A DNA stretch of 37,300 nt from Archaeoglobaceae archaeon (lineage in GTDB: Archaea > Halobacteriota > Archaeoglobi > Archaeoglobales > Archaeoglobaceae). This document shows positions 16,537-22,138 of the stretch, one piece after another. The stretch spans positions 1-37,300 of the forward strand of contig WAKM01000005.1 of NCBI GenBank assembly GCA_015523335.1, given 5' to 3'. The position numbers and the translations under genes are program-made. The notes below the pieces were generated by a model. It was not told the DNA's origin. It searched no databases and was given only the letters and a program-made list of their open reading frames with translations. How positions within the stretch are numbered: the first letter of the stretch is position 1; the number at the start of each line of letters is the position of its first letter.

Positions 16537-18519
16537 ATGCTCTCAGTAATCTTATGGCTCGGTGTGCTTGGGCTTTTAAGTTTTCTAACCCTACCGTTAG
16601 CCTCCAAGCTTAGGTTGATTTACGCTTCGAAGATCTTCGGTTTGGTTGTTCTCAGCTACATCGTTTGGATCTTTGCAAACTTCTTGAACTTCAAGACCGC
16701 AAGTCTCGTTGGCTTTTTAACCTACACTGCTATCTGCGTATATCCGCTCGCGAGATGTAAGGACGAAATAAAGGACATGCTGAAGGATTCCGCAAGATTT
16801 GAGATTATATTTGCAGTTTCTTTTTTGATCTATCTGCTCTACACCGCATTCAACCCGGACATATTTGGCGGAGAAAAGATGATGGATGTATCCGTTTTGA
16901 GCGGAATTCTTAGAAGTAGGGGAATGCCACCGATAGACGTCAATTTGGCTGGATTTAGATTCAACTGCTACTACTACATGGGCTACCTCATAGTCGCAAC
17001 GTTAACGAGCCTAACGCAAACATCAATCGGCGTAGCATATAACTTAGGAGTTGCAACGTTTTTTGCTTCTGTTTTGGCGTTATCTGTTGAATTCGCCATC
17101 AGAAACAGAGTCAAATTTTTGCCGATACTACTCCTAGCTGGAAACTTAGCATCCTTTGTAATACTGGTAGGTTGCGGACTGCAGATGCTCGGGTTAATTC
17201 ACGTAGAAGGGCTTAAGCCCGAAAGAGCGTTCGATTTTTGGACTGTAACGAGGGTAATTCCGGGCACGATAAATGAGTTTCCATTTGCAACGCTAACGTT
17301 TAGAGATCTTCATCCCCACCTCATGGACATCCCGTTTCAGGTTCTATTCATAATACTGCTGTTCGAATACGTCAAGCTTAGAGATCGGAGAATTCCGATT
17401 TTTCTATCGTTTCTGCTCGGATTCATGTTCACTGTAAACTCTTGGGAGTTCCCAACCTACCTGACTTTACTGACACTTACGATTTTAATTTTTGGAAGCT
17501 TTAGGGATCTTTTTGCGTTACCGCTTGCCGTATTTCCCTACATACCATACATCGTCAAACTTCATCCGTATGCGGTTAAGGGAATAGGTGTGGTCACCGA
17601 AAGAACCATGCTTCCCAACTTCGTCGTAGCTCAGCCTTTAATTCTGATTCCGTTGTGCTGGATCGCTTGGAAGAACAAAAAAAAGTTCTTAGCAATTTCC
17701 TTAACCCTGATACCGATAGCAGTTATTTCGAACTTCCAACTACTACCCCTCCTCATCCCTCTTGCGGTGTTGTCTGGAGTGAGTCTTCTAAAAAGAGATT
17801 TCAAGAGTATTTTGATCTTCATATCCGCGTTGATATTCTTACTCGTCGAGTTGTTCTACGTCAACGACCCCTATCCAGAAAAGTGGGAGAGATTGAACAC
17901 AGTTTTCAAGACCTACATTCAGGCGTGGATTATGCTGTCGTTCGCATCGGCGTTCATAGTTTCCAAAATCAACAGAAGAGCGCTTAAGATAGTTGCCCTA
18001 TTCGTAGCGATTCTCTGGATTTATCCCGTGGGTTACATTGCAACGTTGCACGGATTTAAGGGTAGTATCGATGGCATGACGTATACCAAGAAGTTCGGTG
18101 AATACGATGCTCTGAGATATCTCCAGAAATGTCCGAACGGCGTTGTGTTGGAGTTTCCGGGGAAGAGTCCCTTTGAATCCTACACATACACCGGCAGAGT
18201 TTCTGCTTTTACGGGGTTGCAGAGCGTCATTGCGAGAGGCGGACACGAACTCTTTTGGAGGTATTACAACGAATCAACGATTCCGATGCTGTATGAAAGG
18301 TGGAGGGACGCGAACGAAATGTATTCGGCAAGTGATATCGGCGAGATCATTCCACTACTTAAAAAATACAATGTAAAATATATTTATATTGGATATTTAG
18401 AGAAGAAACACTACAGTGAGGAAGCTCTAAGAAAATTCGAAGTGTTCAAAAAGATATACGACGACAGCAAGGTTGAGATATACGAGGTAACGTTTTTAAC
18501 TGCAAAGGCACACAATTGA
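16537..18519 (+). CDS. DUF2298 (YYY-domain) polytopic membrane protein, GT-C-like
   Basis: 660 residues with about twelve or more membrane helices. The family signature is clear: PDIFGGEKMMD (107-117), GMPPIDVNLAGF (129-140) and CYYYMGY (144-150), the triple-Tyr element that names the family. DUF2298 proteins resemble GT-C membrane glycosyltransferases that use polyprenyl-linked sugars on the outer face. A surface-glycosylation role is therefore reasonable, but substrate is unknown. The C-terminal about 150 residues form a soluble domain (YVNDPYPEKWERLNTVFK through KYIYIGYLEKKHY). A C/D box sRNA begins 2 nt after its stop. Confidence 0.8.
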   Translation: MLSVILWLGVLGLLSFLTLPLASKLRLIYASKIFGLVVLSYIVWIFANFLNFKTASLVGFLTYTAICVYPLARCKDEIKDMLKDSARFEIIFAVSFLIYLLYTAFNPDIFGGEKMMDVSVLSGILRSRGMPPIDVNLAGFRFNCYYYMGYLIVATLTSLTQTSIGVAYNLGVATFFASVLALSVEFAIRNRVKFLPILLLAGNLASFVILVGCGLQMLGLIHVEGLKPERAFDFWTVTRVIPGTINEFPFATLTFRDLHPHLMDIPFQVLFIILLFEYVKLRDRRIPIFLSFLLGFMFTVNSWEFPTYLTLLTLTILIFGSFRDLFALPLAVFPYIPYIVKLHPYAVKGIGVVTERTMLPNFVVAQPLILIPLCWIAWKNKKKFLAISLTLIPIAVISNFQLLPLLIPLAVLSGVSLLKRDFKSILIFISALIFLLVELFYVNDPYPEKWERLNTVFKTYIQAWIMLSFASAFIVSKINRRALKIVALFVAILWIYPVGYIATLHGFKGSIDGMTYTKKFGEYDALRYLQKCPNGVVLEFPGKSPFESYTYTGRVSAFTGLQSVIARGGHELFWRYYNESTIPMLYERWRDANEMYSASDIGEIIPLLKKYNVKYIYIGYLEKKHYSEEALRKFEVFKKIYDDSKVEIYEVTFLTAKAHN

Positions 18520-18521
18520 AA

Positions 18522-18576
18522 GCCGATGATGACTGATGGGCGAACTGAATTGTGATGAAAGGGAGAGTTCTGAGGC
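18522..18576 (+). ncRNA. C/D box sRNA (2'-O-methylation guide)
   Basis: All four boxes are present with canonical spacing. Box C ATGATGA is at 18526-18532 and box D' CTGA at 18545-18548. A 3-nt spacer leads to box C' GTGATGA (18552-18558), then box D CTGA (18570-18573). The guide regions are 12 nt (CTGATGGGCGAA, 18533-18544) and 11 nt (AAGGGAGAGTT, 18559-18569). A short terminal stem is formed by GCC (18522-18524) and GGC (18574-18576). Archaeal C/D RNAs bind L7Ae, Nop5 and fibrillarin to methylate rRNA or tRNA. It lies directly behind the DUF2298 stop and is probably cut from that mRNA. Confidence 0.85.
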
Positions 18577-20875: not shown

Positions 20876-22138
20876 CTAAACGAACATTACTCCCTTTATG
20901 TCGCCGAATTTCGTTTCCTTTCGCATAACCTTTTCTATGGCTTTAAGGAAGTCGTCCATCTTCACGGTAGTTCTGTCCTCCCTTATCGCGAACATTCCTG
21001 CTTCGGTGCAAATTGCTTTGATGTCTGCTCCGCTGGCTCCCTCCGTGAGGTTCGCAAGTTCCGCGAAGTTAACGTCATCGGCAAGCTTCATCTTCCTCGT
21101 GTGGATCTTGAATATCTGAATTCGTCCTTCGTAGCTCGGCAGTGGAACCTCTATTATTCTGTCGAATCTGCCCGGTCTAAGGATGGCCGGATCCAATATG
21201 TCGATCCTGTTCGTTGCTCCGATGATCTTGATGTCCCCTCTCGGATCGAACCCGTCCATCTCGGCAAGCAGTTGCATCAAAGTCCTCTGAACCTCTCTAT
21301 CACCGCTCGTATCGCTTGCAGTTCTTCTCGCAGCGATCGCATCCAATTCGTCTATGAATATTATCGAAGGAGCCTTCTCCTTCGCAAGTTCGAATACCTC
21401 TCTGACGAGCCTCGCACCCTCGCCTATATACTTCTGAACGAACTCGCTACCTACGACCCTTATGAAGGTGGCGTTTGTGTGATGAGCAACGGCTTTAGCG
21501 AGCAGGGTTTTTCCGGTGCCCGGTGGTCCATACAGCAGAACGCCTTTGGGCGGCTCTATTCCGACCTCTTCGAACAACTGAGGCTTAAGCAGTGGGAGTT
21601 CTATCGCCTCTCTGATCTCCTCGATCTGCTTGTCCAAGCCACCTATGTCCGCGTAAGTTACCTTCGGTCTCTCTTCTACTTCGAACGCATATACCGTAGG
21701 ATCCTTCGATGAAGGAAGAACGCTTACAACTGCCAATGTCTGCTGGTTAAGAGCGACTCTAACTCCGGGCTTAAGCTCTTTAGGATCGATATAGTGAGAA
21801 GCGTAAACTACAAACTTGGGACCGGTTGAGCTTTTAACTACAACCCTACCGTTGTCGAGGACATCCGAAATCACTCCAACTATGAGAGGAGGCGATCTCA
21901 ACCTTTCGATTTCGCTCCTAAGTCTCCTAACTTCCCTCTCAAACCTTATCCTTTCGGTTTCGGCGAACCTCTTCTCATCTTCAAGCTTACGACAAAGTTC
22001 TTTAAGCTTGTAATATTCCTCCTCAATTCTCTTAAGCCTGAGGTATTCCTCTTCCAATCTTTTGAGCCTGTCGAGTAAATACGAATAATCCAAGGATTCC
22101 ACCGCAACGTCTTCCTTCGGAATGTCTTCTCCGCCCAC
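20876..22138 (-). CDS. pan: Proteasome-activating nucleotidase PAN
   Basis: 420 residues. A hexameric AAA+ unfoldase that feeds proteins into the 20S proteasome. The N-terminal coiled coil (about 15-80) is followed by an OB domain (about 82-150). The AAA+ domain has Walker A GPPGTGKT, Walker [32 protein letters not shown] with arginine fingers, and the pore loop [18 protein letters not shown]. The C-terminus ends GVMFV, where the canonical gate-opening HbYX motif would have Tyr. Start is GTG at 22138, supported by GGAGG 7 nt upstream (22146-22150). Confidence 0.95.

Follow-up and report, generated by a model that had tools for sequence, protein, structure and literature searches.

The guides of archaeal C/D box small RNAs (sRNAs) have been described as fast-evolving, and no methylation site common to all of the species studied has been reported (PMC7994747, PMC4644070). 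The nucleotides equivalent to C1402 of 16S rRNA are 2′-O-methylated in Escherichia coli (m4Cm1402), Pyrococcus abyssi (Cm1376), yeast (Cm1639), and humans (Cm1703), and the eukaryotic guide for this site (18S Cm1703/Cm1639) is U43 (SNORD43)/snR70 (PMC7005279, PMC11542601). In the accessible literature, which comprised neither supplements nor most subscription papers, no paper assigning an archaeal guide to C1402 was found.

The window analyzed here, 37,300 nucleotides in length, is the whole of a contig from an Archaeoglobaceae genome and contains a complete archaeal C/D box sRNA gene at positions 18522 to 18576. A preliminary description of this DNA had placed such an sRNA there, and the boxes, guides, and stem were all as it described them. 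The Rfam family sR1 (RF01152) matched the gene with 54.9 bits (E 3.6e-11; gathering threshold, 45) in a cmscan of the window and was the only RNA match in the window to reach the gathering threshold. Both the class of the sRNA and, by score, its Rfam family are already known. The features of the locus are as follows, with boxes and spacer as read from the sequence.

16537 to 18519, plus strand: neighboring gene, membrane protein DUF2298 (PF10060; Pfam, 267.7 bits)
18487 to 18499, plus strand: putative archaeal promoter, BRE-like GTAACG and TATA-like TTTTTAA (A/T enrichment at the loci of the family)
18522 to 18576, plus strand: whole C/D box sRNA, sR1-like in Rfam (RF01152, 54.9 bits; homologues in about 48 genomes of the family)
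18522 to 18524, plus strand: 5′ arm of the terminal stem, GCC (pairs with GGC at 18574-18576; nearly invariant)
18526 to 18532, plus strand: box C, ATGATGA (near-invariant column block in 21 relatives)
18533 to 18544, plus strand: D′ guide, CTGATGGGCGAA, 12 nt, with the core TGATGGGCGA (pairs with the organism's own 16S 1400-1408 and own 23S 2554-2564)
18545 to 18548, plus strand: box D′, CTGA (invariant in the alignment)
between 18548 and 18552, plus strand: D′-C′ spacer, ATT, 3 nt
18552 to 18558, plus strand: box C′, GTGATGA (conserved)
18559 to 18569, plus strand: D guide, AAGGGAGAGTT, 11 nt (pairs with 23S GGCTCTCCC, 2508-2516)
18570 to 18573, plus strand: box D, CTGA (invariant in the alignment)
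18574 to 18576, plus strand: 3′ arm of the terminal stem, GGC (pairs with GCC; nearly invariant)

A single G (18525) lies between the GCC arm and box C, and the arm is therefore written GCC(G), 18522-18525. The gene has the makeup of an archaeal C/D box sRNA: an RUGAUGA box C, a CUGA box D′, a UGAUGA box C′, a CUGA box D, and a stem; guides of 8 to 12 nt that abut boxes D′ and D and a spacer of a few nucleotides (here 12, 11, and 3 nt); and Watson-Crick pairing at position N+5 on the rRNA (16S C1402, 23S C2558, and 23S C2512). No second sRNA was detected in the window, either with Rfam or with a four-box pattern applied to both strands, to which this sRNA was the sole match.

The sRNA is widespread in its family. 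Searching with a sequence model derived from 21 of its members (match limit, E ≤ 4.6e-11) gave matches in 48 of the 54 other Archaeoglobaceae genomes (49/55 with the organism's own) and, at the same limit, in one of two genomes of the sister family. Viral contigs yielded no match. Nearly all family members retain both guides (D′ core TGATGGGCGA, D core GAGAG), whereas the D′-C′ spacer and positions 1 (adjoining box D′) and 12 of the D′ guide vary, which indicates selection on both guides. It is extremely improbable that the locus is a decayed or silent copy from which no RNA is produced, as the boxes are perfect, the guides are conserved, and a promoter-like element is present family-wide.

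The preliminary description had noted that the sRNA begins 2 nt after a stop codon, which is correct (TGA at 18517-18519), and had proposed that it is probably processed from the 3′ end of the mRNA. The latter proposal was not borne out. The TATA-like TTTTTAA (18493-18499) falls within the final part of the upstream gene, at −29 to −23 relative to the sRNA, and its −29 spacing is that of an archaeal TATA box, which makes a start of its own near 18522 likelier than mRNA processing. At least 6 of 7 positions starting at −29 were A or T in 88% of the 49 family loci, compared with a background of about 20%, and an A-rich BRE-like stretch precedes the TATA-like element in the family loci. Furthermore, the DUF2298 gene precedes the sRNA in only 8 of these 49 loci, all in genera g1 and g4. 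Sequence context thus favors an own promoter over release from the mRNA. According to a 2017 study, as it is covered in a review (PMC7994747), TATA-like motifs precede only 20% of the C/D box genes of archaea, which would place the TATA-bearing sRNA in a minority.

Other features of the neighborhood were also recorded. In Methanobacteriales (loci L154, L163, L181, L342, L344, and L233), the sRNA lies approximately 15 to 35 nt behind the stop codon of a proteasome-activating nucleotidase (PAN)-like gene and may be processed from there. The window also encodes a PAN-like gene (20876-22138, minus strand), 2.3 kb from the sRNA. A cluster of genes for ribosomal proteins L12/P1, L10/P0, and L1 (18656-20666, minus strand) is convergent to the sRNA, and the acidic C-terminal tails of P1 and P0 are near-identical at the DNA level. 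Linkage of the sRNA to the L12 gene was considered and set aside, as it was found in the organism's own genus only.

The D′ guide matches two rRNA sites. In the organism's own 16S rRNA, CGCCCGTCA (1400-1408) forms 9 bp with the guide, including one G:U pair, with a predicted duplex energy of −17.6 kcal/mol and C1402 at N+5; the A at guide position 2 mismatches 16S C1399. The second site lies in 23S rRNA. A contig end interrupts the 23S rRNA gene of the organism's own genome, so that the covariance model gave no match to it, and a DNA search recovered a 969-nt 3′ piece that carries the D′ site. Positions 2554-2564 (E. coli numbering) of this piece form 11 bp with the guide (predicted energy, −15.0 kcal/mol), with C2558 at N+5. 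Pairing with the A-loop/H92 region, with methylation directed to the C at the fifth position, had been proposed previously, and both region and nucleotide hold for the organism's own 23S rRNA. However, the segment TTCGCCCATTA named at the time does not: the own 23S reads TTCGCCTATTA instead, and the duplex consequently contains two G:U pairs, not one. The proposed target list was also incomplete, as 16S 1400-1408 pairs about equally well.

The literature consulted names U2552 and C2556 as methylated A-loop nucleotides of archaea, but not C2558. In five guide-bearing genomes (G080, G089, G062, G409, and G407), 23S G2557, which lies opposite guide C4, is replaced by A, and the 16S site was intact in all four of these genomes with a 16S sequence. 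A 23S match in G054 (L115, 79% identity) resembled a contaminant and was left out. Three of the A2557 genomes (G062, G080, and G089; L149-L151, family f9) have A at both 2552 and 2557 of 23S rRNA and carry the D′ guide TGATGGGCAG, whose A3 mismatches both 16S C1400 and 23S C2556. In Altiarchaeota (L156, L169, L206, L237, L241, L242, and L245), the partner guide CGAACAACC has a target in the A-loop with U2552 at N+5; it scored 9 to 10 on the own 23S rRNA of three Altiarchaeota genomes, and its site overlaps the putative C2558 site.

No target had previously been recognized for the D guide, but one was found here: 23S GGCTCTCCC (2508-2516) pairs with it through seven Watson-Crick and two G:U pairs (−15.3 kcal/mol), with C2512 at N+5. 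This site is identical across the 23S sequences of the family and lies approximately 45 nt upstream of the D′ target in 23S rRNA. In the organism's own genus (g1) and g4, two nucleotides separate GAGAG from box D, which would select C2512, whereas the other genera, and thus most relatives, have one nucleotide at this place, which would select U2513. As g1 and g4 also share the upstream DUF2298 gene, the shift to C2512 looks like a single event. A search for complements in the organism's own rRNAs and tRNAs, suggested earlier as a check, thus returned 23S sites for both guides and a 16S site for the D′ guide, while tRNA complements were weak. A tRNA target was rejected, with best scores of only 6.5 (D′) and 6.0 (D) over 30/39 of the own tRNAs.

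Opposite guide positions 2, 8, and 10, transitions distinguish the 16S segment matched by the D′ guide from the 23S segment, and the bases held at these positions bear on whether one or both sites are targets. Variants were searched in the organism's own phylum and in that of Methanobrevibacter with a relaxed pattern in which positions 3, 7, 8, and 10 were free by transition, positions 1, 2, and 12 were wholly free, and the rest were fixed. The pattern occurred in 54/393 and 139/152 genomes, respectively, while a reversed control pattern had no match in the same two phyla. T8 was present in 194/195 pattern matches, G10 in 195/195, and A2 in 190/195, although many of these genomes are close relatives, so that the counts are not independent, and the unbiased search for variants covered these two phyla only. 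T8 pairs with both 16S G1405 and 23S A2561, and replacing it with C would cost the 23S duplex a computed 4.0 kcal/mol. G10 pairs with both 16S C1407 and 23S U2563, and replacing it with A would cost the 16S duplex 4.8 kcal/mol, also as computed. A2 fits 23S only. Among shuffled D′ guides, 7/400 (2%) attained the real score somewhere in 23S rRNA, 39/400 (10%) did so somewhere in 16S rRNA, and 0/400 did so in both; for shuffled guide pairs, D′ and D sites of such quality within 100 nt of each other in 23S rRNA occurred in 0/400. As a 9-nt match to a purine/pyrimidine pattern is not rare by chance in 23S rRNA, the two-target reading is drawn from the held bases rather than from the match by itself.

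These data weigh on both single-target readings. The preliminary model, in which the D′ guide serves 23S C2558 and the 16S match is incidental, would account for the 11-bp duplex in the own 23S rRNA, for the Watson-Crick fit of A2 and T8 there (on 16S rRNA they form a mismatch and a wobble), for the D-guide target approximately 45 nt away in the same molecule, and for the Altiarchaeota partner guide aimed at U2552 in the same region. However, the guide is retained where 23S G2557 is A, G10 is never A although A would fit 23S U2563, and the 16S site coincides with a nucleotide that is methylated in each of the three domains; in addition, no 16S Nm has been reported for Haloarcula marismortui, and the guide is missing from most genomes of the own-phylum sample. 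We therefore consider this model unlikely. A guide for 16S C1402 whose 23S match is incidental appears equally doubtful. It would agree with the universality of the Nm site, Pyrococcus included, with the likeness of the guide to that of SNORD43, and with a 16S site that was intact in every genome checked, including G409, where A1405 makes the T8 pair Watson-Crick. In contrast, C at position 8 and G at position 2 would fit 16S rRNA better, yet T8 and A2 are held in nearly all of the 195 matches, and the 23S match exceeds that of 98% of the shuffled guides. On sequence grounds, we judge 16S C1402 to be the more certain D′ target and 16S and 23S together to be the most likely state.

The D′ core is not confined to Archaeoglobaceae. 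The pattern TGAKGANTGATGGGCGANCTGA matched at least 117 stretches in 85,000 species genomes, all with titles naming archaea, against a chance expectation of about one (our own estimate from pattern length), and 112 of the 117 matches listed have the four-box layout. Among the matches listed, the core TGATGGGCGA occurs in Methanobacteriales, Thermoplasmatota, Altiarchaeota, Hydrothermarchaeota, Methanococcales, Thermococci, and DPANN; it occupies the D position in most of them and the D′ position in Archaeoglobaceae and Hydrothermarchaeota, and the partner guide is lineage specific. The order of TGATGGGCGA and CCCTATGAGC is swapped between Hydrothermarchaeota (L216, L223, L235, and L266) and Methanobacteriales (L154 and others), as if the sRNA were circularly permuted, and CCCTATGAGC reads as complementary to the CAT anticodon loop, which would place C34 of tRNA-Met at N+5. 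The partner guides of other lineages were considered as evidence for the 23S site and rejected: no good rRNA match was obtained for the Methanobacteriales partner ACCCTATGAGCT, which limits the partner-guide argument for 23S rRNA to Archaeoglobaceae and Altiarchaeota. By its letters, ACCCTATGAGCT may instead fit the CAT anticodon loop of tRNA-Met. It is conceivable, if rather doubtful, that the guide has been kept since early archaeal evolution, marking 16S C1402 (P site) and 23S C2558 by means of wobbles held at the positions that distinguish the two targets, and that it shares ancestry with U43/snR70. Conserved between Archaeoglobus and gut methanogens and matching a site at which all three domains carry a methyl group, the guide provides a testable example of an RNA-guided modification possibly older than the divergence of archaea and eukaryotes, and also of a single guide serving both ribosomal subunits.

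Overall, we favor, with some confidence, a model in which the sRNA would be transcribed from its own promoter, be bound by L7Ae, Nop5, and fibrillarin as its presumed partners, and act as a dual-guide sRNA for 2′-O-methylation of rRNA. The D′ guide would direct methylation of 16S C1402, a P-site nucleotide of the decoding center, and probably also pair with 23S rRNA at C2558, just behind the A-loop, its wobbles fitting both sites, while the D guide would direct methylation of 23S C2512, adjoining the peptidyl-transferase center. As the sites matched by the two guides in the peptidyl-transferase/A-loop region are separated by approximately 45 nt, and as bridging has been proposed for archaeal sRNAs (PMC4644070), they might instead serve mainly as a folding chaperone that clamps 23S 2508-2564 during assembly, with methylation secondary. 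This is improbable, since each of the three duplexes has the Watson-Crick pair at N+5 that methylation needs.

Among described systems, the RNA class is ordinary, and the interesting part is a D′ guide that is perhaps unusually old and perhaps has two targets. The sRNA resembles sR1 (RF01152) in scoring above the 45-bit cut-off, in layout, and in its similar D′ guide, and the sR1 member L243 (Thermococci; 64.3 bits) has an identical D′ core. However, the guides of the sR1 consensus are shared only in part for D′ (gggaUggcCGcA, not identical) and not for D (GuAgGugACCUc in the model versus AAGGGAGAGTT here). sR2 (RF01139) is matched by Methanococcales sRNAs that carry the same core in the D position, but the window sRNA scored 25.1, below the cut-off of 42, and has the core in the other guide position. 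The bacterial enzymes RsmI/RsmH (16S m4Cm1402) act on the same nucleotide, but they are proteins that use no guide RNA. When the Rfam model of SNORD43 was aligned to the sRNA of the window, the D′ guides fell into register (UGACGGGCGgA versus UGAUGGGCGAA), but the match, with 20.3 bits (E 0.015), was below the cut-off of 45, and the two RNAs are unrelated in their other halves. As in SNORD43/snR70, the guide is in the D′ position and the core is near-identical (UGACGGGCGg versus UGAUGGGCGA), and the nucleotide that it would select in the own 16S rRNA (N+5, C1402) is the equivalent of human 18S C1703. This choice of nucleotide does not prove the sRNA to be a U43, but it suggests that the sRNA could act like one.
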